In this document: one piece after another, positions 1,463-64,000 of the stretch | Position numbering within the stretch: position 1 is the first letter of the stretch | How the letters are laid out: every line of letters begins with the position of its first letter | Assembly: GCA_030017715.1 (NCBI GenBank) | Contig: JASEIU010000003.1 | Location: 310,001-374,000 of the forward strand | Source: Candidatus Saccharicenans sp. | GTDB lineage: Bacteria; Acidobacteriota; Aminicenantia; Aminicenantales; Saccharicenantaceae | Length of the DNA stretch: 64,000 bases | Direction: 5' to 3' | Made by a program: the position numbers and the translations under genes | Notes under the pieces: generated by a model | Databases searched by the model: none | Seen by the model: the letters and a program-made list of their open reading frames with translations, nothing else | Told to the model about the DNA's origin: nothing

Positions 1463-2698
1463 CTATTTGTGGCGGGACAGATGATGTTCCAGCTCTAAAT
1501 TAAGCAGTTTGTTCATGACCAGGGATACAGCCCCAATGGCCGCTGCTTTAAGCCCAAAAGTAGCCGGGCGTAAAGATACATCCCGCGAGCTTCTGTTAAG
1601 AGCTCTCGAATTCACGGTTTTTCTAATATTATCAAACAAAAATTCCCCGGCCAGGGTGACCCCACCGCCAAGAAAAATGGCTTCAGGATTAAACAGATTT
1701 ATGAGCGCCGAAATACCAAGACCGATATATTCTGCGGCCTGACTGAAAACATTCCAGGCCAGGATATCGCCCTTCTTAGCCGCATTCGCCACCATCTCCG
1801 CACTGATTTTTTTAAGATCCCCGCCGCACATCTCGACCAGAATGCTCTTCGCACCTCTTTCTAATTCATTCCGGGCGGCTCTGGCTATTCCCCGCCCCGA
1901 AGCCATGGCTTCAAGGCAGCCAAAATTGCCACAGTCACATTGGGTTTTGCTATTTAGATCAACCGTAATGTGGCCGAACTCTCCAGCCATTCCTGCAGCT
2001 CCCAGCAAAGGCTTCCCGTCAACTATGATCCCGGCTCCGATGCCGTAACCAATATTTATTAAAATAAAATTTTTATAATTCTTACCCATTCCATAACACA
2101 TTTCTCCCAGAGCCATTACCCTGGTTACATTATCAAAATAAATGGGCACAGAAAATCGGTTTCCAAGTACTCCAATTATATCTACATCATGCCAGTGAAA
2201 ATTCGGCGAAAACTCGACAATATTTCTACTTTTATTTATCAATCCTGCGACTGCCAGTCCGATGCCGCACAACCTCTTTTTCTTCTCCTCTATTTTTTGA
2301 TTCAGGATATCGATAATCTCCGAGGTTTGATCCATTATTTTATAAAAGCCTTCCTCCAATTTTGTTGGGCGCTTCTCTTCATATATAATGTTCGCATTCA
2401 GGTCGGCCAGGACACCATAGACATTTGTAGTTCCCAAATCTATCCCGATTATGTAATTATCAGCAGCAGCTATTCTTAATAATATCGGCCGCCGGCCGCC
2501 TGTTGACTGGCCAGCTCCGATCTCCTCCACCAGGCCCTCTTCTATGAAGCCATCAACGATCCTTGAAACAGTCGGAGCACTTATTCCGATTAGTCGGGTT
2601 ACTTCGGCCCTGGAAATGGACTTGTTGTCATATATCAGATTAAGAATCTTCTTTTTATTAACTCGAAGAATATACTTAGAGTTTCCAACGGGAATCAT
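1463..2698 (-). CDS. ROK family transcriptional regulator (NagC/XylR-like), copy 1
   Basis: N-terminal wHTH (ISRAEVTRLIGISAPTVSRIVDGFIEEGLVEE) plus ROK domain (IGIDLGTTNVYGVL; CxCGxxGCLEA zinc motif: CDCGNFGCLEAMASGRG). Confidence 0.93.
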   Translation of the reverse strand: MIPVGNSKYILRVNKKKILNLIYDNKSISRAEVTRLIGISAPTVSRIVDGFIEEGLVEEIGAGQSTGGRRPILLRIAAADNYIIGIDLGTTNVYGVLADLNANIIYEEKRPTKLEEGFYKIMDQTSEIIDILNQKIEEKKKRLCGIGLAVAGLINKSRNIVEFSPNFHWHDVDIIGVLGNRFSVPIYFDNVTRVMALGEMCYGMGKNYKNFILINIGYGIGAGIIVDGKPLLGAAGMAGEFGHITVDLNSKTQCDCGNFGCLEAMASGRGIARAARNELERGAKSILVEMCGGDLKKISAEMVANAAKKGDILAWNVFSQAAEYIGLGISALINLFNPEAIFLGGGVTLAGEFLFDNIRKTVNSRALNRSSRDVSLRPATFGLKAAAIGAVSLVMNKLLNLELEHHLSRHK

Positions 2699-3005
2699 CT
2701 TTCCTTCCTTCCTTTAACTTTAATTTATGATGCTCCAAAATAGCTGTATCCGGGAGTGTTCATTAAGTAACTATAATAACAAAGTTTCTTGACTGTCAAG
2801 TCCCCGGTTCGTCCTGATTTCAGGATGACGAAATCGGATTTTTCTTAGCTCAAAAGAGCGGCTTATATTTTTCCGGAAGCCAGGCTGAAAAAAAGCGATC
2901 CGGGAAAATTTCAGAACTTTCTTGTAGTGCCCCCCTGAAGTCAGGACACTTTTTTGGCAAAAAAGCTGTCTATGAATTCAACTGATAATTTTATCTTGGC
3001 GATTC

Positions 3006-5171
3006 TCATCTTTCGGGAATCAGGGAAATTTTAACAGGGGTTTTTTCATCCATCTCCAGCCAGACAATTAAATCTTTTTTCCCCAGCCTGTCCACGTAGC
3101 CAATTCGATATCGATCCCTTTTCTGGATATCCTTTCCGTTTATCCTTAGCGAGAATTTCGTGTCACCCCAGTTCTCGATATACAAAGAAGGATTATAAAC
3201 AGGAGATTTATCATCTGCGACCAACTCAACTTCCAGCGCTTCCGGTTTTCCGGCTGATTTGGAGATCAGATAGCAACGCTGAGTAAGGTCATAACCATGG
3301 TTCTTATATCCATTCGAATAGACTCTGATTTCGGGCGGGTTAGCCCAGGATCTCGCCAGGGGCAAAAGAGTCTTAATCGGTTTGTTGGTAGCTCCGTAGA
3401 GCCAGGCCCACCAGAAAATATCGCCTTCTCCCCGATGTGGCGGCGGTCCACCCCAGGCCAGGGAAAAATGCGACGGCCGGTCAGCTGCCTGACAGTATCT
3501 CCCATCGGAAGGAATTTGAGCTACAGGCCAGTGATTCCACCAGGGAAAGTGAGTTATTCCCTCCCGATATTCTATGCCAAATACTCTGACCCGATTGCCG
3601 GTTTCAAAGATTTCATAGGGCTTATATTCGGATTTCATGTTCACCATAAGCACCACTGGTTTCTCTTCCGGTCTGTCGCCAAAATGCAAGTACCTTCCCT
3701 GTGGATCCAAAATTCTGGGTGGCCCTGCTGACCAGTCATAGGTTTGATGCTGTCCGCTGAGATTCATCATAGTTAGAGCTTTTAAGTCAACCACGTCCTC
3801 AGGACGCTGACCGGGGTGGCAAAGAACGATAAATTCCTGCGGTCCGAGAGGGCCGCCTTTGGTGTGTAAAATGACCTTCCTCACCCCGACCTGGTCGGGA
3901 TAAATGGTATAATATTCATCTGCCCAGTCCGACCAACCAGAAACCGGGTCAACCTGTGAGCGGCTTCCATTGGCAGCTACAGGCGAATATCTCCAGTGCA
4001 CAACTACCCGGGCTTCTGTATTCTCAACTATCCTGACATGAGAGAACTGGCATTTGGCGTCAAGCATGTGCTCCTGACAGCCATCCTGGTCAGTAAAGTT
4101 CTCAGCGCTCTGGTCTGCCATCCAGTGCATTCTATCCATTGCCCAGACCGGCGAATACCGCGTCCCTCGCCAGAAAACGACTCTGACCGGAGAATTATCA
4201 AACTGCACCACCACCTCCGCATCTTTGACCACCGGCCAGAGGTTGTCCCATTCAGGATAATAATTTAAGGTCGTATAATAGGCTCCAAATTTTCCAGGAC
4301 CCTCCGGCCCTGAGGGCATCACCCTCGCCGGAAGTCCCGGCTCATCTTTGGGAAACTCAGCAGCATAGTGACCGGCAATTTCTTCCAGGGAGAGTGCTTC
4401 ATTAAATATCTTAACTTCATCTATCAGCCCATCAAAGGAATACCAGCAAGCCAGAGTGGCAAAGGGTCGCACCGGATAAGCCGGTTCTCTTTTTTCCCGG
4501 TTCATCCCGATACGCAGCGGCTCTTTCTTGGCCTGCGAAAACGAATAGGGACCACTCTTCTCGGCCACCTTTTTGCCATCGATGTATAACTCCAGACCAA
4601 CCTGTTTCTTAAAAACGGCCATTACGCTTATCCATTTTCTCAAAGGCAACTTTGACTCGCTCCGACAGACAATCCAGCCTTTATTTGTGCCAACCATTAA
4701 TCCCAGATAGCCTTCCGGAGAAACCCCAAAATAAAAGCCATCCCGGGGAGAATTAACCACCATATCATCCGGCCAACAATACTGGTCAAGATTAGAATTA
4801 AGGCTGATAGTATTTTCTTGAGCCGCAATCGGCACCCAGTTCCAGGGATAGGCACCCAGGGCAATCCAGGCTGATAATGTAAAATCAGAATTTAATACTG
4901 GAACATTCTCTGCGGGATGGGAAACACAAGTAGTATGGTCGTCAAAGACCAGGGCCCTGCCTCTTACCCCATTTAGCTGACGATAGTTTCCGTTAATGAC
5001 ACTCAACCCGCCGGCCACTTCTTCTTTTGTCTTTCCTTGCTCAATGGAATCAAAATTCCAGTAGAGGGTCGGCTTCCTGCCGGGAAGCTCAGCACTCAAA
5101 ATTGAACAGGCAACAAGAAAAATTGCCAGGGATACCAACAACCGATTCTTCATTTCTTTTCTCCTTTGCAC
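3006..5171 (-). CDS. Secreted LamG-domain protein with a large uncharacterised C-terminal region
   Basis: Signal peptide from an internal Met (MKNRLLVSLAIFLVACSILSAE, likely start ~5153), then a LamG/concanavalin-like domain (FTLSAWIALG...LELYIDGKKVAE...GLIDEVKIFNEALSLEEI). The remaining ~430 aa are not recognised. Confidence 0.8.
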   Translation of the reverse strand: MQRRKEMKNRLLVSLAIFLVACSILSAELPGRKPTLYWNFDSIEQGKTKEEVAGGLSVINGNYRQLNGVRGRALVFDDHTTCVSHPAENVPVLNSDFTLSAWIALGAYPWNWVPIAAQENTISLNSNLDQYCWPDDMVVNSPRDGFYFGVSPEGYLGLMVGTNKGWIVCRSESKLPLRKWISVMAVFKKQVGLELYIDGKKVAEKSGPYSFSQAKKEPLRIGMNREKREPAYPVRPFATLACWYSFDGLIDEVKIFNEALSLEEIAGHYAAEFPKDEPGLPARVMPSGPEGPGKFGAYYTTLNYYPEWDNLWPVVKDAEVVVQFDNSPVRVVFWRGTRYSPVWAMDRMHWMADQSAENFTDQDGCQEHMLDAKCQFSHVRIVENTEARVVVHWRYSPVAANGSRSQVDPVSGWSDWADEYYTIYPDQVGVRKVILHTKGGPLGPQEFIVLCHPGQRPEDVVDLKALTMMNLSGQHQTYDWSAGPPRILDPQGRYLHFGDRPEEKPVVLMVNMKSEYKPYEIFETGNRVRVFGIEYREGITHFPWWNHWPVAQIPSDGRYCQAADRPSHFSLAWGGPPPHRGEGDIFWWAWLYGATNKPIKTLLPLARSWANPPEIRVYSNGYKNHGYDLTQRCYLISKSAGKPEALEVELVADDKSPVYNPSLYIENWGDTKFSLRINGKDIQKRDRYRIGYVDRLGKKDLIVWLEMDEKTPVKISLIPER

Positions 5172-5429
5172 CCTGTTTGTATTAAATTAATTCTTCTTAA
5201 GCAAAATCTTTCTTATCGGATATAAAAACACCCAGGCCAGGGCATTTTCTCTTTAATCTAAAATCTAATTAATGATCAAATCTAAAATATTAACCTTGCC
5301 TCTTTAAGGCCTTAAAAAATTGCCAGCGGCCGCAAACTCTTCAAATTTTCCCTCTAATTTCCCCAAAAATGCTCCTTTCCGGGCAAGCCTTTTACCTAAA
5401 ACACCCGATATCATGAAATTTAATCTATA

Positions 5430-5454
5430 TTACTTATTTATCTTATATAAGTAA
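5430..5454. promoter_or_regulatory. Candidate ROK operator upstream of the LamG gene
   Basis: TTACTTAT-N9-ATAAGTAA perfect inverted repeat. Confidence 0.45.
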
Positions 5455-5769
5455 GTAATGCATTATAAAATGTCAAGCACTTTTTCAAAACGCTCTATCA
5501 GAAAAGCAAATGCTACCCGGGGCGCGAGCACGGCTTTCATCAAACTACAAGGTCTTCCTCCAGCACGCGGACGGCTGAGGAAGTCAGACGTTTGAAACCG
5601 GTTACAAAATTATGATGTTCAGGCCGCATTAATTGTACGGCAGAAACTCGAAGCAGCAGGGCAACCCTTCTGGGCCGTTTTGCTTTTAAGCTCTTACTTT
5701 AACAAAAAGACTGTCCTGACATCTCAATATAAAAAATATTCCAGTCAGCTCCCCTGGAAAATATTCCAT

Positions 5770-7020
5770 TTAAGTAGTGCCGCAACATTTCTTATATTTC
5801 AAGCCACTCCCGCAGGGACAGGGGTCATTGCGGCCGATTTTTCCTGATTTCTGAATATTGGTTATAAATCCTTCCTCCCTGGCCAGGGCTTGTTCCTGCT
5901 TCCACTGTCTTGCCAGCTTTCTCAAGCGGCTGTCGGCATGGTGGAAAAACATCCGGAATGAGTCGCAAAAGTAGTTGAGTTCCGGGTTTACCGGATTGAA
6001 TCGCCTGTCCTTAGGACAACCGCCCCTGCAGAACTGAAGCCAGGAGCAATTCAGACAAGATTCAGGTAGAGCAGATTTCCTCTGGCCAAAGACTTTCTGA
6101 GCATCAGAATTGAGAAGGTCAATCAACTTTTTTTCTTTAACATTACCCAGTTTCAAGTGGGAATCGACGAAAAAGTCGCAGGGATAAACATCGCCGTTGT
6201 GTTCTACGACGACATAAACACCACATTCAGGAAGCAAGGTACACTCGGGAGGTTCAAACCCAACATAGGCAAAAAAGAGAGAATCGAAAAAGCGGACAGA
6301 GGTTGTCTCCCGACCGTCACGAAAATCGCCCATCCACAGATCAAACAATTTGACCAGAAAGTCTCCGTAGTCTTCTGGAGACGGGCAAAAACTTGCTCTG
6401 TTTCCTGGATTGGCTGGACCCGGTTCCAGACACGGTATGAACTGCATATAGTTCAGCCCGAGAGTCTTGTGGAATTCATAGATCTCTTCCGGAAATTTTA
6501 CGGAATAATCATTGATCACGGTCAAAGCATTCACCGCCACTCCAGAGTCGAGCAAGAGTTTTGCCCTGTCCACCACCTGTGACCACGAGCCCTGCCCGCC
6601 TTTCAGGAAACGATATCTGTTATGAATATGTTCAGGACCATCGAGCGATAACCCTACCAGGAATTGGTTTTTTCTGAGAAAAGCAGCCCATTCTCTGTCA
6701 ATCAGAAGCCCATTGGTCTGGAGGGCATTTCTTACTAACTTCCCCGGACAATACTTTTTCTGAAATTCGATAGCCTTCTGGAAAAAAGAAAGACCTGAGA
6801 GCGTGGGTTCTCCTCCCTGCCAGGCAAAGGTGGCTGAGTTGCTCGCTTCCTCCAGAAACTGGCGCGTTGTCTCCTCAAGGACCTCCGCACTCATGCGATG
6901 GGAAATGGTGTCAGGGTAGAGTTCCGACTTTTTAAGATAAAAACAATATGCGCAATTCATATTGCAGTCGGCGCCTGCCGGCTTAATAAGAATTGAGTTC
7001 AGCGGCTTTTGTAATATCAT
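5770..7020 (-). CDS. Anaerobic sulfatase-maturating enzyme (radical SAM/SPASM) with C-terminal SEC-C motif
   Basis: Radical SAM CxxxCxxC ([10 protein letters not shown]), SPASM-type cysteines ([26 protein letters not shown]...[18 protein letters not shown]), terminal SEC-C motif [19 protein letters not shown]; adjacent to a sulfatase gene. Confidence 0.92.
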
Positions 7021-7248
7021 ATCTTCTTTAGTGAATTCTTGGTTGTTTTATGTTATGTCCATTATTTCCTTTCAGGATGCTATCAGAATCGATAGATTGG
7101 CATTTCAGGATGACCACAGGACACGTTGATTCGAGACGTTCTAATAAACTAAACCTGCAGATAAAAATTTTTTGGCCGGGGAGACGGGCCATTTTTCTAA
7201 AAATCCTTTACATGTCTCTTGATTTCTATGCCGTTAAGACTATTCAGT

Positions 7249-8814
7249 CTATTTAGTTCTTAATGGAGTGCTGCGGCCTTCTTGCCTGTAGCGATCCAGA
7301 AGGGCAGCCAACCGCTCCACTATTTCAGGCTGCTTTTCCCAGAGGTCGTTTTGCTCGTACGGATCTTCTTTTAGATTATACAATTGACCCGGTGTTCCCG
7401 GCCTGGGAGGTTCTCCTTCCGGAATCATCCAGCCGCCGGATGTTTTATTGTCCAGGATAAGCTTCCATTCCCCCTGGCGAATGGCAAATGTTCCGTTTTC
7501 GGAATGATGAATAAGAGCTTCTCTAATCGGTTGCTTCTGTTTTTTCCCGAATAAGGCCGGAGAAATGTCATAACTATCAGGCCCGGCTCCCGGTGCCGAT
7601 TCGGCGCCCGTGATAGCAGCAAAGGTTGCCATAAGATCAGTTAAGCAGAGGGGCTCATCTGACACAGTTCCGGGCTTTATCTTTCCCGGCCAGCGAACTA
7701 TAAAGGGAACCCGGTGACCTCCCTCCCAGATATGAGATTTCAAACCCCGGAGGGGCCCGGCCGACAAATGACCCTTTATCCCTGGATGCGGTCCATTGTC
7801 GCTGGTCATAATCACAAGCGTCTTCTCAGCTATGCCCAGGCGATCGAGAGTTTTCATAACTTCTCCCAGGCACCAGTCAGCCAAAATGACAAGATCCCCC
7901 CGGGGACCATCTCCGCTCTTCCCCTTTACAAAATCGGGGGGAAGCCAGGGAGTATGTGGTGAGGACAGAGCAAGTTCGACAAAAAAAGGTTTGTCTGATG
8001 CCCGGCACCCCTCTATGAACTCGATCGCCTCCCGGGTGAAAGCCAGGTCGACTTCCTCCAGAATAAACCCCTGAGCTATCCAACCCGGGCGCGGACTGCC
8101 CTCTTCTCCACGGCTCAGGTCATAAAATTCCGATACCTGGTGATCCGGAATGGCAGCAACCCGGTCATTGTCTATATAAGTAAAGGGGCCATCTATCGTA
8201 GAACAAGCGGCTGTGAAGAAAGCGCGGTCAAAACCGTGGTCCACCGGGCCGCCTCGCACAGGTTTGGTAAAATCAACATTCATCCCTGTTTCCGGAGGGG
8301 CATCCTGCCATGAGCCTCTCCACATCCTTTCGGCATCTCTCCAGGTAGGTGTAAAACCGTTCATCCGCTGCCAGCTAAGTCCGAGATGCCACTTGCCAAA
8401 AAATCCGGATTTATAGCCTCTTCTTTTTAGCATGGTAGCCAGGGTCTCCCTTCCCGGATCTATTAAAGGAGGCGTGTAACCACCGACAACACCTCTCTGG
8501 AGCCAGGTCCGCCAGCAATATCTTCCAGTCAGGAGGCCATAACGGGTGGGGGTGCACACAGCCGACGGGGAGTGAGCATCAATAAAACGGATCCCTTCCT
8601 TCGCCAGACGATCCATGTAAGGCGTTGGAATCCGGGAATCCGGATTATAGCAGCCCGGATCCCCGTAGCCCATGTCATCAGCCAGAATCAGAATGATATT
8701 GGGAACGTTTTCATTCTGATGAAGAAAAGAACGGCATCCTCCAGCAGTTAGGGAGGCAGCCCCGGCTCCAAGCAACTTAACAAAATGCCGCCTGTTCATT
8801 TTATTCTCCTTCAA
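7249..8814 (-). CDS. Sulfatase (arylsulfatase family, Cys-type)
   Basis: N-terminal RRHFVKLLGAGAASLTAGGC (Tat/lipoprotein-like), metal-binding IILILADDMGYGD, sulfatase signature C-x-P-x-R in SAVCTPTRYGLLTGRY, GKWHLG motif. Confidence 0.95.
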   Translation of the reverse strand: MKENKMNRRHFVKLLGAGAASLTAGGCRSFLHQNENVPNIILILADDMGYGDPGCYNPDSRIPTPYMDRLAKEGIRFIDAHSPSAVCTPTRYGLLTGRYCWRTWLQRGVVGGYTPPLIDPGRETLATMLKRRGYKSGFFGKWHLGLSWQRMNGFTPTWRDAERMWRGSWQDAPPETGMNVDFTKPVRGGPVDHGFDRAFFTAACSTIDGPFTYIDNDRVAAIPDHQVSEFYDLSRGEEGSPRPGWIAQGFILEEVDLAFTREAIEFIEGCRASDKPFFVELALSSPHTPWLPPDFVKGKSGDGPRGDLVILADWCLGEVMKTLDRLGIAEKTLVIMTSDNGPHPGIKGHLSAGPLRGLKSHIWEGGHRVPFIVRWPGKIKPGTVSDEPLCLTDLMATFAAITGAESAPGAGPDSYDISPALFGKKQKQPIREALIHHSENGTFAIRQGEWKLILDNKTSGGWMIPEGEPPRPGTPGQLYNLKEDPYEQNDLWEKQPEIVERLAALLDRYRQEGRSTPLRTK

Positions 8815-8952
8815 GCTTATTAATTATTTATTTTATAATCGACTCCATCCTTGACCACTCTGATTGAACCCTGCCCTCTTTTTAGCCTTCTAATTTTTCT
8901 CCCAATGAAGATGTTAAGACCTGACACTTTCATTAACCCTTCTTCTTAATAT

Positions 8953-9365
8953 GGCATAACTTATAACAGTTTGACATATTTTCCATCCGCGAAGCGCAGC
9001 AGGTGCTCTCTGCCTGCAAAAGCGACAGACTCGACTGCGCCATCTTCCAATCTTTTCGTTGGAAAGACCGGTCCAGTAACTGATAATTCAAAAGGTTTTG
9101 GGGCTGGAATACGGCCAGGGCCGAATTACGGTCACGGATTCGAGCCCCTACAGGATATTCACCCTCCCGGCTGAGGACAATTTCCAAACCTCCTCTGACC
9201 TGGAAGCCCTGGAAGGGGCCTTCGGCCAAAGCTCTCGGAGGTGCTGCACGAAGATAAATCTCACCGGTCTCAGGTTTAGACCGCATCATGCTGCTCATTT
9301 GGGCCGTCCAGAAACTTCAGTCTTTCTTTTGCTTCCTCAGCTGAGGGAGCAGCCGGATTACTGAG
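8953..9365 (-). pseudogene. Degraded gene remnant; possible C-terminal debris of a GH95-like protein
   Basis: Coding-like segments in different frames: GEIYLRAAPPRALAEGPFQGFQVRGGLEIVLSREGEYPVGARIRDRNSAL in one frame, then PKPFELSVTGPVFPTKRLEDGAVESVAFAGREHLLRFADGKYVKLL* in another. No single frame spans both. Confidence 0.45.
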
Positions 9366-9377
9366 GTATCTCGGTTT

Positions 9378-10631
9378 TTATAATTCTAATCGTTCTTCTT
9401 TATAACTGGACAAAAAGTCTGCCAATTCCAATTCGAGCAGCTTGTTCATTACCAGGGAAACAGCCCCCATGGCAGCCGCTTTAAGACCGAATTTGGCAGG
9501 AAGCAGAGGCACTCCTCGTAAGCTCCGGTTTAGAGCTCTGGCATTTATGGTCTTTCTGACATTGTCAAAAAGTATTTCTCCTGCCTGAACAACCCCACCG
9601 CCCAGGACTACCGCCTCAGGGTTATAAAGGTTGATCAGGGCCGAAATTCCTAATCCGATATACTCAGCAGCTTGAGTGAAGATATTCCAGGCCAAAACAT
9701 CTCCCTTTTTGGCCGCTTTAGCCACCGTTTCGGCCGTGACCTTCTCCAGATCTCCTCCACACATCTCATAAATGATGCTTTGAGCGCCCTTTTCCAGCTC
9801 CATCCGGGCGGTTCTGGCTATTCCCTGCCCGGAGGCCAACGCTTCCAAACACCCGAAATTGCCGCAATCGCATTGTATTTTGCTGTTTCTATCTACTGTA
9901 ATGTGGCCGAATTCACCCGCCATCCCCGCTGACCCGAACAGCGCCTTCCCCTCAATTATGACCCCGGCGCCGATCCCATATCCAACATTAATAAAAACAA
10001 AATTTTTATACTGTTTACCGGCACCGTAACATTGCTCGCCGAGAGCCATGACCCGGGTGACATTATCGAAAAAGATGGGCAGGTCAAATCTGCCTCTAAG
10101 AACCCCCAGTATGTCAGCATCATGCCAGTGGAAATTGGGAGAAAACTCGACGATATTTCTCTGCCGGTTGATTAAGCCCGCTACCGCCAGGCCGATTCCG
10201 CAGATTCTTATTCTTTTTTCCCGGGCTTTAGCGATCAATATTTCAATGATCTCGGCAGTTTGCCCCATAATCTGATAAAAGCCTTCTTTTATCCTGGTCG
10301 GCTGCCTCTCTTCAAAGATCAAGCTGGCGTTTAAATCAGCCAGCACACCATAAATATTGGTTGTGCCCAGATCTAGGCCGATGATGCAATTATTATCAGC
10401 AGCAATTTTCAGCAGCTTGGGACGCCGGCCACCCGTGGATTCTCCGACTCCGATTTCCTCCACCAGGCCTTCACTTAATAGACAATCTACTATCCTGGAG
10501 ACTGTCGGAGCGCTTATACCGCTCATTTTTGTCGCTTCGGCCCTGGAAATTGATTTGGCGTTATAGATCAGATTTAATATCTTTTTCTTATTAACCTGCT
10601 GAATGTATTTAGAATTTCCTATAGGATTCAT
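9378..10631 (-). CDS. ROK family transcriptional regulator, copy 2
   Basis: Very high similarity along its whole length to the ROK protein at 1463-2698 (e.g. MNPIGNSKYIQQVNKKKILNLIYNAKSISRAEATKMSGISAPTVSRIVD); same CDCGNFGCLEA motif. Confidence 0.93.
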   Translation of the reverse strand: MNPIGNSKYIQQVNKKKILNLIYNAKSISRAEATKMSGISAPTVSRIVDCLLSEGLVEEIGVGESTGGRRPKLLKIAADNNCIIGLDLGTTNIYGVLADLNASLIFEERQPTRIKEGFYQIMGQTAEIIEILIAKAREKRIRICGIGLAVAGLINRQRNIVEFSPNFHWHDADILGVLRGRFDLPIFFDNVTRVMALGEQCYGAGKQYKNFVFINVGYGIGAGVIIEGKALFGSAGMAGEFGHITVDRNSKIQCDCGNFGCLEALASGQGIARTARMELEKGAQSIIYEMCGGDLEKVTAETVAKAAKKGDVLAWNIFTQAAEYIGLGISALINLYNPEAVVLGGGVVQAGEILFDNVRKTINARALNRSLRGVPLLPAKFGLKAAAMGAVSLVMNKLLELELADFLSSYKEERLEL

Positions 10632-53325: not shown

Positions 53326-53587
53326 TGTGACCGCTCTGCTATCCTTTCAAATTCTCTGTTATTTTTTATTTTATTGGCAGTGCCGGCGTCAATTATTTTT
53401 AGGGGTGATGATGGGGGTGAAATTTGGGTGAGGAAAGGGGACCCAGAAAAAAACAGGGACATTGTAAAGTGTCCCCTTTTTCGGCACAGCCTGCCGCTCG
53501 GAAACGGGGGACACGATACTATTTCACCAATTTTTTTTGTTTCCTGGGAAAAATCGGGGACAGCTTATTGTGTCCCCGGTTTCTTAC

Positions 53588-55733: not shown

Positions 55734-56350
55734 GGGGGACACAATACTAATTCACCAATTTCCTCCATACTCGCCCGGGTTCGCCTCTGCAGCATTAGCG
55801 CCAAAAACGGGGGACACAATACTAATTCACCAATTTTCGGCCGGGTTCCCCTCTTCAGTATTACTGCAGATAGAGCAAGGCTTTTAGCCGATCAGCCGGT
55901 TATGTTAATTATTAATCCCGTTTCTGTGCTGCTGCTCACGGAAATAAAACGCCCCCCGAAGTATCGCACCTGATATTGAATGCCCAAATACCCGGGGAGG
56001 CAATCTATCTATATTTCCTATTTTTTTTCAAAACCGGGGAAACATTGCGACCACAATATATTTTATTTTTACAATATATTTTCATCATATTTTTCGTATT
56101 TTTCATACTTTAAGATAATTAACCCAGAAAAAAGCCCGGGGAGGAAAAGCGCGCGGGTTCTTATCACCTGATCACCTGCTCTTTTCCAGGCTTCCAGGGG
56201 ATGGGCAACACTGAAAGTTTTCACTTCTTCCAGGCACAATTCCGAGTGATAACGCCGGGGACCCAAGCATCTCAAGAGCGCTGCTTTGAGCAGCGACATA
56301 GGAAAGAAGGGACACTTTTAGGAAAGAAGGGACACTTTAAGGTGTCCCCC
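55734..56350. repeat. Long interspersed repeat, copy A (~617 bp)
   Basis: Near-identical to 58252-58848 and 60135-60654; begins GGGGGACACAATACTAATTCACCAATTT and ends GGGACACTTTAAGGTGTCCCCC. Confidence 0.95.
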
Positions 56351-56460
56351 TTTTCGGCACAGCTTGCCGCTTAATAACATATTGATAGCAAAGAAGATAC
56401 AAGCCGAGACAGATAAGCCTCAGGCAAGATTTGGGGACAGTGTAAGATGTCCCCTCTTAA

Positions 56461-57840
56461 TCAGGTCTGGAACTGAAGTTCGCGGAGCTCAAAGGCCAGG
56501 TTTTTCATAAACTTATTGATGGCTGCCTTGCCGTAGACGCCAAGGGCCGCATAATGGAGGCGCAGAGTCGCCAGATGCTTCAGGATGTATTTCCAGGAAT
56601 AGAAGCCGGCCATGGCCCTAAAAGTCTCAATCTGCAGGGTGATCGGCGTCATCGAAGCCGGCCTGTAAACAACGTGGTGGGCGTCGTATTTGCTCCAGTT
56701 GGTATGGATGAGCCTCCCGCCATCCTTCATTTCGCTGAACAGCGGAGTGCCGGGGAGCGGCGTTAAGATCATAAACTGAATCGTGTCAATTTTGCCTTTC
56801 CTGGCGAAATTCAGGGTCTGACGGATGGTCTCGACGCTATCGGTGTCGGCGCCCAGAACAAACATCCCGTGGATGTGAATCCCGTAGTCCTTGATAACCT
56901 GAATCGCCCGGATGATGTCCTCAAGGCTCTGTTTTTTCTGGTAGGCTTCGAGTGTGCGGGGGTTGATGGATTCAAAACCGATGTAAAGCGTATGGCAGCC
57001 TGAGTCGGCCATAAGGCGCAGGAGACGGGGGTCACGGGCGACATCAACTCTAACCTGGGTGGACCAGGTCATTTTGATTTTCTCGGCCAGCACTCCGGAG
57101 AGAATTTCTCTGGCGCGGCGAGGGTCGGCCGCAAAATTATCATCGACGATAAATTTGGTGGCCCGGGAAACCGCGTTCACATACTTTAGTTGCCGAACGG
57201 TGGCTTCGGCGGATTTAAACCGGTACCTGCGGCCGAACATCTGGATGACCGAGCAAAACTTGCAGCCGTAGGGACAGCCTCTCGAGGTTGAAACAGGATA
57301 GATGTTGGATTTTTTCCAGCCGTGAACGAGCGAGAAATCCGGTTCGGGAAGGAGGTCAAGGCTTTCGATGAATTCGGCCGGCGGATTGTGAGTCGGGCTG
57401 CCATCCCGGTCACGGAAGGAGAGTCCCTTTATGCTGGAAAGCGATGGCTGGCCGGTTTCCAGGCTGGAGAGCAGGGCGGGGAGCGTCGTCTCCCCTTCTC
57501 CGCGGACGACGAAATCGGCATGCTGGAGGGCTTCGTCGGGCAGAAAGGTCACGTGCGGACCGCCGACGACAACCGGAATGCCCAGGGCCCGAATTCGGTC
57601 GGCCAGAGAGAAGGCGCGGGCCGCAGTTGAGGTTATGGTTGAAAGGCACACCAGGTCCGAGTTGTTGACGTATGACCAGTCCGGCTGGGCGATATCTTCG
57701 ACAAAGGCTCTGACCCTGTAGCCCTGCTCCCGCAACATAGTGGACAACAGAACCGAGCCGAGACGCGGGATGGGAAATTTGCTGAAGATGTTGGCGCCGG
57801 GCGAACCGGCCTCGATGAAAGCTATGTTTTTAATTTTCAT
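56461..57840 (-). CDS. Radical SAM protein with N-terminal B12-binding domain
   Basis: B12-binding-like N-terminus (RLGSVLLSTMLREQGYRVRAFVEDIAQPDW...LVCLSTITSTAARAF); radical SAM STSRGCPYGCKFCSVIQMFG. Confidence 0.92.
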   Translation of the reverse strand: MKIKNIAFIEAGSPGANIFSKFPIPRLGSVLLSTMLREQGYRVRAFVEDIAQPDWSYVNNSDLVCLSTITSTAARAFSLADRIRALGIPVVVGGPHVTFLPDEALQHADFVVRGEGETTLPALLSSLETGQPSLSSIKGLSFRDRDGSPTHNPPAEFIESLDLLPEPDFSLVHGWKKSNIYPVSTSRGCPYGCKFCSVIQMFGRRYRFKSAEATVRQLKYVNAVSRATKFIVDDNFAADPRRAREILSGVLAEKIKMTWSTQVRVDVARDPRLLRLMADSGCHTLYIGFESINPRTLEAYQKKQSLEDIIRAIQVIKDYGIHIHGMFVLGADTDSVETIRQTLNFARKGKIDTIQFMILTPLPGTPLFSEMKDGGRLIHTNWSKYDAHHVVYRPASMTPITLQIETFRAMAGFYSWKYILKHLATLRLHYAALGVYGKAAINKFMKNLAFELRELQFQT

Positions 57841-58251
57841 GATTGATTTCCTTCCAGATCAAATAAAGCGGCAGACGGCGGCTGAAACATGGCGAATAAT
57901 GAAAAAGAAGTGAAGCTGCCGAGTGAAGCCGCCAAGTAAAGCCGGCGCGGGAAGAGAAACTGTGCGTGCATCGCGGAGGCAGAAGGGAGTTTGGCCGGCC
58001 TGTGTCAGGTAGATAATAGACATGAATATAACTTGCTTATAAAGAAGCTAAGGGAAAGAGGGCGGCCTGAAGTGAAATGAGACCGATAATGCTAATCATG
58101 GTTTGTGAGCCTCAGATCTTAGAACCGAATCCTATACTTCTATTTCAAGCATTTCAAGCAGCCGGCATAACTGGTATCGAAGGCGAAATCAGCTTCTCCC
58201 CTGCCTACTTACAGCATAAGCTTCTGATTAATAATAGTCAAGATAAAAAAC

Positions 58252-58848
58252 GGGGGACACAATACTAATTCACCAATTTCCTCCATACTCGCCCGGGTTC
58301 GCCTCTGCAGCATTAGCGCCAAAAACGGGGGACACAATACTAATTCACCAATTTTCGGCCGGGTTCCCCTCTTCAGTATTACTGCAGATAGAGCAAGGCT
58401 TGTTAGCCGATCAGCCGGTTATGTTAATTTTTAATCCCGTTTCTGTGCTGCTGCTCACGGAAATAAAACGCCCCCCGAAGTATCGCACCTGATATTGAAT
58501 GCCCAAATATCCGGGGAGGCAATCTATCTATATTTCCTATTTTTTGCAAAACCGGGGAAACATTGCGACCACAATATATTTTATTTTTACAATATATTTT
58601 CATCGTATTTTTCGTATTTTTCATAGTTTAAGATAATTAACCCAGAAAAGAGCCCGGGGAGGAAAAGCGCGCGGGTTCTTATCACCTGATCACCTGCTCT
58701 TTTCCAGGCTTCCAGGGGATGGGCAACACTGAAAGTTTTCACTTCTTCCAGGCACAATTCCGAGTGATAACGCCGGGGACCCAAGCATCTCAAGAGCGCT
58801 TCGTTGAGCAGCAACATAGGAAAGAAGGGACACTTTAAGGTGTCCCCC
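58252..58848. repeat. Long interspersed repeat, copy B (~597 bp)
   Basis: Near-identical to copy A over its full length, including the two GGGGGACACAATACTAATTCACCAATTT units at its left end. Confidence 0.95.
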
Positions 58849-58928
58849 TTTTCGGCCAGAATTCACGCCTGTAACTGACAGTAAACAAAAAGTTTAAAAG
58901 CAGGGCCGGGCGCGAGCAGAGAAAAAAA

Positions 58929-58950
58929 GGGGACATCTTAAGGTGTCCCC
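58929..58950 (-). terminator. Palindrome GGGGACATCTTAAGGTGTCCCC acting as probable intrinsic terminator of the DUF362 gene
   Basis: Read on -: GGGGACACCTTAAGATGTCCCC followed by TTTTTTT; starts ~12 bp after the stop codon at 58963. Confidence 0.7.
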
Positions 58951-58962
58951 TCTTCGGCGATT

Positions 58963-60090
58963 TTAGAAGAGGAGGGGGCGAATCCGGGCGGCGTAGGCTT
59001 CGCTGGCCGCATCGGGCGTCTCAATGATTATATCCTCGGGCGATTTGACGCCGAGGCCCAGTTCGGCCGCCCTCGCTATCTGTTCCTGCTCAAACACTTT
59101 CGGCTTCATTATGGCCTCATTGGAGCCGAGCTCTTTCAGGATGGCCACAGCCACGGCATCAATGGCCACGCGATCCACGCCGGCCAGGAAAACATAAGCT
59201 TCCTTGCGCGGGCCGCTCATCGGCCCCTGGTCGACAAAGGCCACCAGTCCATCCAGAATAACGAAGGTCGGCTTATAGGCATAATTAATCTCGGCGATCA
59301 TCCGGCGCTGGTGCGGCGAGGAGTGAAGCTCACGCATATAGGTATGCCCTTTGCGAGGGACGATGCCGACCGAATTTTTTAGCGACATGGTGAATACCCC
59401 GCCGAAGCCGTGGGTCTTCAGACAACAGGTGGAGATGAGGGCTTCGGCTTCCACCACCGGTCGGGCCACCAGAAAGCCGTCCTGCCAGTGGGAACCGGGC
59501 GGGGTAATTTTTAGGTAACCTTCCGGACCGAGTTCGTCAAAGTTCAGCAGGCGGGCATCAAAGGAAGCGGCCAGCTCTGGGATGCCTTTTTTATCAAAGA
59601 CCTTTTCGGTAGGCTCAGGCCCGCTGCGGTCGCCGATGGTCAGCTCTTTAGCGCCGGCCTTGCGCAGCTCGTTGAGTATTTCTTTCAGGGTGTCGTTGTG
59701 GGTTGAACCGGGTGTTTCGTCGGAAGTGTTGAAGTTTGGCTTAACCAGGACTCTTTTTCCTTTGAAGGGCTTGGTCTCCTTGAAAAAGGCGAAGGCTTTG
59801 CGCACTCCGTCGGCCCGGTCTTCTGTGCGGATCAGAAGGACACGGGACTTGCCGGCGGGAGCCAGCGGGTCGCGGGGGAAAACATCTGTCACGGAAACTC
59901 GGCCAGCGCGGATATTAGCACCGGCGGCCGGATTTCCAGATCTAGATAAGGAAAAGTAAGAAGATAAATCAGCGCCGTTAGCTGCTGAAAGCAGTGCTTT
60001 CCCGCCCAGCGCAGAAAAGCCAACCAGGCCGAGGCTGGTCATTAAAAAATTCCTCCTGTTTATTTCCTTTGATTTCTGTTTCTCCGACAT
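58963..60090 (-). CDS. DUF362 domain protein with Tat-like signal
   Basis: NRRNFLMTSLGLVGFSALGG signal; VLVKPNFNTSDETPGSTHNDTLKEILNELRKAGAKELTIGDRSGP; STCCLKTHGFGGVFTMSLKNSVGIVPR. Confidence 0.88.
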   Translation of the reverse strand: MSEKQKSKEINRRNFLMTSLGLVGFSALGGKALLSAANGADLSSYFSLSRSGNPAAGANIRAGRVSVTDVFPRDPLAPAGKSRVLLIRTEDRADGVRKAFAFFKETKPFKGKRVLVKPNFNTSDETPGSTHNDTLKEILNELRKAGAKELTIGDRSGPEPTEKVFDKKGIPELAASFDARLLNFDELGPEGYLKITPPGSHWQDGFLVARPVVEAEALISTCCLKTHGFGGVFTMSLKNSVGIVPRKGHTYMRELHSSPHQRRMIAEINYAYKPTFVILDGLVAFVDQGPMSGPRKEAYVFLAGVDRVAIDAVAVAILKELGSNEAIMKPKVFEQEQIARAAELGLGVKSPEDIIIETPDAASEAYAARIRPLLF

Positions 60091-60134
60091 GACAAATCCC
60101 TCCTCATGGATTCACTGCTATTTTACCAAAAAAC

Positions 60135-60654
60135 GGGGGACACAATACTAATTCACCAATTTTCGGCCGGGTTCCCCTCTTCAGTATTACCGCAGATAGA
60201 GCAAGGCTTTTAGCCGATCAGCCGGTTATGTTAATTATTAATCCCGTTTCTGTGCTGCAGCTCACGGAAATAAAACGCCCCCCGAAGTATCGCACCTGAT
60301 ATTGAATGCCCAAATATCCGGGGAGGCAATCTATCTATATTTCCTATTTTTTTCAAAACCGGGGAAACATTGCGACCACAATATATTTTATTTTTACAAT
60401 ATATTTTCATCATATTTTTCGTATTTTTCATACTTTAAGATAATTAACCCAGAAAAAAGCCCGGGGAGGAAAAGCGCGCGGGTTCTTATCACCTGATCAC
60501 CTGCTCTTTTCCAGGCTTCCAGGGGATGGGCAACACTGAAAGTTTTCACTTCTTCCAGGCACAATTCCGAGTGATAACGCCGGGGACCCAAGCATCTCAA
60601 GAGCGCTGCGTTGAGCAGCAACATATGAAAGAAGGGACACTTTAAGGTGTCCCC
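60135..60654. repeat. Long interspersed repeat, copy C (~520 bp)
   Basis: Same as copies A/B but with only one left-end GGGGGACACAATACTAATTCACCAATTTT unit. Confidence 0.95.
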
Positions 60655-61703: not shown

Positions 61704-62140
61704 AAAGCTGGGGACACAATAATCACTCCCCAATTTCCCGAACGAGCTTCATTCTCCTCAAAGGAAAAAATGCCCCATGATTTTGCAGATATTTTTTCGA
61801 GCTTTTCCCGGCGGCAATGATATCAGAAAAATTAATCAGAAAAATAAAATTGCGGCCAATAATTCCTGTTTTTGTTTGGAAAGCCGGGGAAAAGACTCCT
61901 TCGGCTTTTTATCAGGACAGACAACGCCGGAAGGAGAAAACCTCCGGAGAGAAATTTGAGGCGTTTCCTGTCGACTTAGCTTTTCTGCAAAAATCTCGAT
62001 ACTTAAGCGAGAAAAGCATTCGAATAATCGTAAGTGTTCGGGACACTAGAAGGTGTCCCCTTTTTGGCCTGGAAAGCTGGCTGATAACTAACTGATATCA
62101 AATATTTTATAAACTAAGCGGGATGCGGCAGGAGAAAAAA

Positions 62141-62161
62141 AGGGGACACTAGAAGGTGTCC
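62141..62161 (-). terminator. Palindrome abutting the M3 peptidase stop codon; probable intrinsic terminator
   Basis: Read on -: TAG then GGACACCTTCTAGTGTCCCC followed by TTTTTTT. Confidence 0.7.
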
Positions 62162-64000
62162 CTAAAGGAGGCCGCGCCGCTTGAGCATCGGCTCGACTTT
62201 CGGCTCCCGGCCCCGGAACTCCACATACAGGGTCATCGGGTCCTCACTGCCGCCCCGGGCCAGAATATTTTCCCGGAAAGCCCTCGCCGTCTCGGCATCG
62301 AACAATCCTTTTTCCTTGAAAGCCTCAAAGGCATCGGCATCCAGAACTTCAGCCCAGATGTAACTGTAATAGCCGGCTGAATAGCCACCGGCAAAAATAT
62401 GGCTGAAATAAGGGCTCCGGTAGCGCACGACAATTTCTGGAATCAAACCGATCCTGACCAGCGAGCGGTTCTCAAAATCCATCACCTCTTCTGTCTTAAC
62501 CGGTTCGGTCAGTATATGCCAATCCAGGTCCAGATAGCTGGCCGCCATGTATTCAACCGTGATGAAACCCTGATTGAAATGCTGGGCGTTTTTGATTTTG
62601 GCCACCAGCTCGTCGGGGATGGGTTCGCCGGTCTGATAATGCCTGGCAAAAAGCTTGAGGAATTCAGGCTCGGCCACCCAGTTTTCCATGATCTGCGACG
62701 GCAGCTCGACAAAATCGCTCGGGACATTGGTCCCGGTGAGCCTCAGGTAGGCGCACTCGGAAAGCAGTCCGTGCAGGGCATGCCCGAACTCATGGAACAG
62801 AGTGTTGACTTCCTCCCAGCTCAGAAGCGACGGCTGCTCCGGCGTGGACTTGGTGAAATTGCCGCAATTTATGATCAAAGGAGCGATCCTCTGGCCGTCC
62901 ACTTTGTAGGTGTCTCGAAGAGCATTCATCCAGGCTCCAGCCCCTTTGGAAGCTCGCGGGAAATAATCGGTATAAAGCAAGCCCACATGTCGGCCATCGG
63001 CTTCTTTGACCTCGAAAACGCGAACGTCCGGGTGATAGACCGGAATGTCCTTTCGCTCCTCAAAGTTCAGACCGAAAAGCTTGCTGGCCAGCAGGAAAAC
63101 ACCGTCGATGACGTTTTCAAGTTTGAAATAAGGACGAAGCATCTCCTCGTCAAGGGCGTATTTCTGCTTGCGCAGTTTTTCGGCATAATACCACCAGTCC
63201 CAGGGTTCAAGCTTGAAATTCGCGCCCTCGGCTTTGATGAGCTTTTGGAGCTCGGCGGCTTCTTCCCTGGCTCGCTTGAGGGCCGGCTTCCAGACCTGGT
63301 CGAGGAACTTATAAACATTCCCGGGCGTTTTGGCCATTTTCTCTTCCAGGACATAATCTGCCCAGGTCTTGTAGCCAAGCAGTCCGGCTTTTTCGATTCT
63401 CAGGGCGATGGTCCTGGCCACCAGAGCTTTATTGTCATATTCGTTGCCGTTGTTGCCGCGGTTGATGTAAGCCTGGAAGATTTTTTCCCGGAGCTCGCGG
63501 CGCGGTGAATACTGCAGGAAAGGAATCAGGCTGGGCTTGTGCAGGGTGAACACCCATTTGCCCTCCAGGCCCCGCTCCTTAGCCGCTTCGGCAGCCGCAG
63601 TCACCACGTTCGGGGGCAGCCCTTCCAGGTCAGCCGGATTTTCGATAACCAGAGTGAAGGCGTTGGTTTCCTTGAGCACATTTTCGGCAAACTTCAGCTC
63701 GAGAACCGCCAGTTCCTGGTTGATTTCCTTGAGTCGGGCCTTTTTGGCTTCGTCGAGCCTGGCGCCCGCCCGGACAAAGTCTTTATAAAATCGTTCGAGA
63801 AGCTGTTTCTGCTCGGGATTAAGGGAGAGCTGACCACGCTGGTCATAGACCTCCTGAATGCGGGCAAAGAGCCTGGCATTGAGAAAAATTTCATCATAAT
63901 GAGCTGAAAGCGTAGGAGCCAGCTCCTGGGCCACGGCTTGCAACTCATCGCTGGTATGGGCCGAAAGCAGGTTTTCCAGGACCTTTTCCGCCCGGTCGAG
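62162..64000 (-). CDS. M3 family metallopeptidase (peptidyl-dipeptidase Dcp-like), N-terminus beyond window
   Basis: HEXXH motif NTLFHEFGHALHGLLSECAYLRLTGTNVPSDFVELPSQIMENW; frame stays open to 64000 (LDRAEKVLENLLSAHTSDELQAVAQELAPTLS). Confidence 0.92.
   Translation of the reverse strand, partial: LDRAEKVLENLLSAHTSDELQAVAQELAPTLSAHYDEIFLNARLFARIQEVYDQRGQLSLNPEQKQLLERFYKDFVRAGARLDEAKKARLKEINQELAVLELKFAENVLKETNAFTLVIENPADLEGLPPNVVTAAAEAAKERGLEGKWVFTLHKPSLIPFLQYSPRRELREKIFQAYINRGNNGNEYDNKALVARTIALRIEKAGLLGYKTWADYVLEEKMAKTPGNVYKFLDQVWKPALKRAREEAAELQKLIKAEGANFKLEPWDWWYYAEKLRKQKYALDEEMLRPYFKLENVIDGVFLLASKLFGLNFEERKDIPVYHPDVRVFEVKEADGRHVGLLYTDYFPRASKGAGAWMNALRDTYKVDGQRIAPLIINCGNFTKSTPEQPSLLSWEEVNTLFHEFGHALHGLLSECAYLRLTGTNVPSDFVELPSQIMENWVAEPEFLKLFARHYQTGEPIPDELVAKIKNAQHFNQGFITVEYMAASYLDLDWHILTEPVKTEEVMDFENRSLVRIGLIPEIVVRYRSPYFSHIFAGGYSAGYYSYIWAEVLDADAFEAFKEKGLFDAETARAFRENILARGGSEDPMTLYVEFRGREPKVEPMLKRRGLL

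Follow-up and report, generated by a model that had tools for sequence, protein, structure and literature searches.

RAYT and TIRYT enzymes are widespread. In the TIRYT/TIRtron system, as presented in the main-text sections of Di Nocera et al. (2013, PMC3733652) and Quentin et al. (2018, PMC6006769), Y1 genes are bracketed by GGGGWSAS repeats, which lack a GTAG tag and are found as single copies, dimers, and clusters as well; the TIRYT Y1 proteins are placed there in subclass 2.1 (Quentin et al. 2018, PMC6006769). REPINs and BIMEs, which are mobilised by RAYTs, have spacers of roughly 20-100 bp (Bertels and Rainey 2011, PMC3116915).

In this work, we describe a repeat found in three copies (A, B, and C) in a 64,000-nucleotide stretch of a Candidatus Saccharicenans genome (the window), which begins with a left tip (LE) and ends with a right-hand hairpin (HP). 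As in the TIRYT/TIRtron system, GGGGWSAS-type repeats bracket Y1 genes here: LE units in inverted pairs surround the gene at C10:430470, and HP hairpins surround that at C12:250808. In contrast to that system, several lineages of the enzyme, differing in tip type, coexist in one genus, and mixed tips bound half-kilobase composites that have been multiplied locally. Such long composites are not described in the main-text sections of PMC3733652 and PMC6006769. No earlier description of these repeats in Aminicenantes or Saccharicenans was found in a search of the openly accessible literature.

The repeats resemble REPINs and BIMEs in forming non-autonomous inverted tip pairs that are dispersed between genes, with one matching Y1 transposase gene for each family. 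In contrast to REPINs, no GT[AG]G foot is present at the hairpin, where the tips read AAAACG followed by GGGGACAC, spacers reach about 500 bp, whole units stay local where REPINs are dispersed, and one composite carries tips of two families. Despite the outward pairing of its tips, the element was therefore rejected as a canonical REPIN on the missing GTAG foot, the interiors of about 490 bp, the unlike end tips, and the exclusively local copies. Like MITEs, it is short and non-coding, has inverted tips (GGGGGACAC...GTGTCCCCC) that match the repeats bracketing the resident Y1 genes, and has its candidate transposase encoded at another place in the genome; unlike MITEs, it would depend on a Y1 single-strand transposase and not on a DDE enzyme, no target duplication is seen, and there are only three full copies, all of them local. 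The alternation of single genes with repeats in one orientation is reminiscent of integron attC arrays. An integron-like array was set aside on account of repeats that are far too long and genes lying on both strands, and the ends are here accounted for by transposase tips. The material of these composites is of a known kind, TIRYT-linked terminal repeats that work like REPINs; what is new is the combination of great length (520-617 bp), end tips drawn from two different transposase families, and multiplication that is purely local.

Structure of copies A, B, and C

The initial annotation had reported three near-identical repeats in the same orientation, and alignment bore this out together with their coordinates and ends. 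Copy A (55734..56350, plus strand, 617 bp) lies upstream of glmS and comprises two left tips, LE1 (55734-55761) and LE2 (55809-55836), an interior, and HP (56329-56349), with an extra 20-bp tandem repeat just before HP. Copy B (58252..58848, plus strand, 597 bp), located upstream of the promoter of the radical SAM gene, is likewise made of LE1, LE2, interior, and HP (58827-58847). Copy C (60135..60654, plus strand, 520 bp) is placed between the divergent DUF362 and aldo/keto reductase genes and has a single left tip, the equivalent of LE2, followed by the interior and HP (60634-60654); the outer tip of A and B is found 75 bp upstream of the tip at which C starts. Pairwise, the copies agree at 587/596 positions (A-B), 511/520 (B-C), and 514/520 (A-C), which corresponds to 98-99% identity, indels aside. 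The substitutions are star-like, and the direction of descent is not readable from them alone. Gene identification confirmed that the copies alternate with glmS, a B12-binding radical SAM gene, the DUF362 gene, and the aldo/keto reductase gene.

The unit extends from the outward-facing GGGGACAC tip of LE through to the matching GTGTCCCC tip of HP, enclosing an interior of about 490 bp. As the initial annotation had stated, no transposase is encoded inside, the longest ORF touching copy C being at most 76 aa. A degenerate LE2-type tip, CCGGGGAGGCAATCTATCTATATTTCCTATTTTTTTC, is located inside copy C (60318..60356, plus strand) and also in A and B; it resembles GGGGACACAATCTATATTTCC, a tip that flanks other Y1 transposase genes in the genus on both sides. 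The junctions of A, B, and C show no apparent target-site duplication, which a Y1 transposase would not be expected to leave.

Terminal repeats and resident Y1 transposases

The left end consists of AAAACG followed by GGGGACACAATAC... and occurs at least 40 times genome-wide. The LE motif is about 33 bp long (40 copies in the stretches examined), with AAAACG followed by GGGGACACAATACTCATTCCCCAATTTT as its commonest form, and the left-tip pattern GGGGACACAATA has 41 matches in the genome, against a single match of its reversed control. A hairpin of 21-22 bp, GGGGACAC-n-GTGTCCCC, forms the right end and is likewise repeated. The family of small palindromes to which the repeats had been related is real, since three exact GGGGACA(N0-30)TGTCCCC palindromes are present in the window against 0.01 expected. 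Each of the three copies carries a GGGGWSAS motif, as GGGGACAC, at its two tips; most tips in the genus fit this consensus, published for TIRYT/TIRtron repeats, and the motif is found around most of the Y1 genes there. Tips pair outward: nine LE+>LE- pairs (97-495 bp), seven LE+>HP pairs (70-554 bp), and no inward pair were counted in 226 kb of the genome, a set of stretches chosen for containing tips rather than a genome-wide census. As single-stranded DNA, the LE variant carried by the three copies (TTCACC) has a poor fold, a point against mobilisation by a transposase.

This genome has two Y1 transposase genes, and genes of this type are present in 18 of the 19 genomes of the genus. The resident enzymes match Y1_Tnp of Pfam above its cut-off and retain the HuH and Y...RNPVRAG motifs, and a profile built from these enzymes retrieves the E. 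coli TnpA_REP structure 4er8 (E 0.003). They have no match to an HTH family in Pfam at E<=1, and their match to REP_Tyr_transpos of NCBIfam lies under its cut-off. The named relatives belong to Candidatus Saccharicenans and Aminicenantes. At a greater distance, GGGGACAC tips also accompany several Y1 genes of Mariprofundaceae, Desulfobulbaceae, and others.

Within the genus, Y1 lineages for the most part have tip types of their own. The types (LE, LE2 with GGGGACACAATCTATATTTCC..., HP, and others) track the enzyme tree with five label changes against 14.3 in shuffles, a degree of clustering that is inflated by near-copies; the labels come from motif scans, in which five genes had no scanned tip, some of them having related repeats on reading. 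In several LE-type transposases, the last residues (KTGDTILVH) are encoded by the LE repeat itself, the tip overlapping the 3' end of the gene (L032:1189-1250; also L158, L171, and L175).

Origin of the copies

We interpret A, B, and C as copies of one non-autonomous composite, assembled from terminal repeats that belong to Y1 transposases (HuH/tyrosine, RAYT/TIRYT-type) and mobilised in trans, a reading to which we assign a probability of roughly 0.6. The make-up of the element from transposase terminal repeats is well supported; the copies would have been made by a transposase or, less probably, by local recombination. The evidence for this reading includes tip identity, the association of tips with enzyme lineages, outward pairing, and the lack of the core in G005, the closest relative with synteny, whose glmS is 90% identical at the amino acid level over its main part. 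The initial annotation had offered a non-autonomous or composite element related to the palindromes, alongside a long structured RNA; the first of these is supported, with ends that are the repeats bracketing resident Y1 genes, and the second is not.

In G005 the promoter-side flanks are conserved at the A, B, and C sites, and the core is absent at all three. Homology stops at the LE tip at sites B and C, and no homologue of the interior is present at the C site, where the local alignment score is 36 against a shuffled maximum of 38. Site A of G005 holds a decayed LE and 43 bp, then HP, which aligns with LE1 and the 45-bp spacer of copy A. At the right boundaries of the three sites, hairpins are native in relatives, and the right limit of the unit may for this reason be either its genuine terminus or a point where crossover took place within a hairpin common to the sites. 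In G005 the radical SAM gene itself is a fragment with an internal stop (G005:C31:4026-4142), and the neighbouring glmS and DUF362 genes remain.

In the mechanism that we favour, a C-type unit (LE2...HP) would have arisen in an 11-kb stretch whose spacers already held LE and HP tips. Joined to the glmS spacer at the hairpin already present there, it would have yielded copy A (native LE1, 45 bp, and LE2...HP), and the enlarged unit (LE1...HP) would then have been copied to give B. The preferred engine would be a resident LE-type and/or HP-type transposase acting in trans on nearby single-stranded DNA. The order A then B would be the simplest, and the LE2 start of C could also be explained by a deletion between LE1 and LE2.

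The whole 520-bp unit is found in only three places of the 2.89-Mb genome (18 contigs), all within 5 kb, and in 39 other genomes of the order the core matches nothing except tip-like pieces. A repeat confined to these 5 kb and lacking conserved ends had been put forward as the finding that would speak against such an element and for a simple local duplication; the core is indeed so confined, but its ends are conserved and scattered over the genome. Besides A, B, and C, there are at least two local clusters of a similar kind: one in this genome (C10:239.7-247.8 kb), with one partial member and segments that look patchwork, and one in the relative G012, within about 9 kb. Whole units that are only local are at odds with the prediction of random transposition. 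Moreover, the two ends of A, B, and C are of different tip types, and a single enzyme using both is hypothetical. We propose only tentatively that a Y1 transposase moves long composites with two tip types (LE left, HP right) over just a few kilobases. If this is true, the spacers of a neighbourhood would be rebuilt from a shared mobile spacer, a process that would recur at other places in this genome and in a second species of the genus.

The alternative that survives best, possible yet somewhat doubtful, is that local recombination or replication template switching copied the interior between neighbouring spacers that already bore transposase-derived tips, with no transposase in that step, through gene conversion or strand switching at the short hairpin-forming homologies of the LE and HP tips. 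It would account for the strict local confinement in three clusters, for the LE and the right-boundary hairpins that relatives natively have, the LE at site A, and for the patchwork similarity and partial copy in the C10:239-248 kb family. However, the common homologies are just 20-35 bp or so, and sites B and C of G005 showed no LE. The TTCACC variant of the left tip also weighs against it: being identical in all copies and absent from other places in the stretches scanned, it travelled with the unit.

A long structured RNA or cis-regulatory leader, selected for in three spacers, is very improbable. The copies adjoin promoters and are nearly identical, and the minus strand gives the lower of two fold z-scores (-1.53 and -2.17 on the two strands), but both values are weak, the repeat unit has no Rfam match, and the core is absent at the A, B, and C sites in relatives, with an interior that is not conserved outside this genome; folding and Rfam were judged unconvincing, and this half of the initial annotation was dropped. 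An assembly artefact, in which one repeat was misplaced three times in a metagenome assembly of 18 contigs, can practically be dismissed, since the copies differ by independent substitutions, by 75-bp and 20-bp indels, and in their flanks, and similar clusters occur in other assemblies.

Returning to the composite of transposase terminal repeats, its wider interest comes from the variety within one genus, where several enzyme lineages that differ in tip type coexist with tip-bounded units whose lengths reach from about 70 bp up to half a kilobase. Recent copies with 98-99% identity, together with syntenic relatives that are free of the core, make the unit ends, the use of mixed ends, and local copying testable.

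Other composites, single tips, and neighbouring genes

The LE...HP plan occurs in six spacers of the 11 kb around A, B, and C, and in four of the six a second HP follows about 80 bp on. Composite D (61709..62060, plus strand, about 350 bp) has the plan of A, B, and C with a different interior. A short LE...HP composite of about 70 bp is located at the 3' end of glmS (53506..53577, plus strand), and another short version lies just past the end of the window. D and the short composites were absent from the initial annotation. Three further HP hairpins, to which no strand is assigned, lie at gene ends. The first (56433..56454) is separated by 7 bp from the radical SAM gene's stop, a position at which many relatives have hairpins or inverted LE pairs; the second (58929..58950) lies by the stop of the DUF362 gene and is followed on the minus strand by a T-run, in a terminator-like arrangement; the third (62142..62162), at the stop of an M3 peptidase gene, is also terminator-like on the minus strand.

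Several HP hairpins resemble intrinsic terminators. With ORFs called mechanically, 13 of 28 intergenic HP hairpins lie at a stop (<=30 bp from an ORF end; control 21%), as do 19 of 43 LE units (control 12%). The start of copy B lies some 10 bp upstream of the promoter-like site of the radical SAM gene, TTGACT-17-TATGCT (58213..58241, minus strand), and similar sites are present in relatives. The hairpins and tips may affect termination or insulation of neighbouring genes. These repeats suggest a source of many intergenic spacers and terminator-like hairpins in these bacteria.

Tips also move alone, because a single LE unit inserted in frame within tilS (L032:461-505; G000:C10:429430-429474), which adds a peptide like KNGGHNTHSPI, is missing from several relatives; others have similar inserts in this gene. 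Additionally, a 1.4-kb segment is present at G000:C1:6440-7821 and G000:C10:398955-400339, 88% identical, and both occurrences end at an LE unit. In the relative G012, spacers at L177:5620-14850 (G012:C68) are mosaics of further tip-bounded palindrome families, such as GGGGGACACGAAGCCTTTTC...GAAAAGGCATCATGTCCCC. Elsewhere in the window, at 1503-10619 (contig C12 311503-320619), two 1.2-kb stretches are 73% identical and apparently represent paralogous genes.
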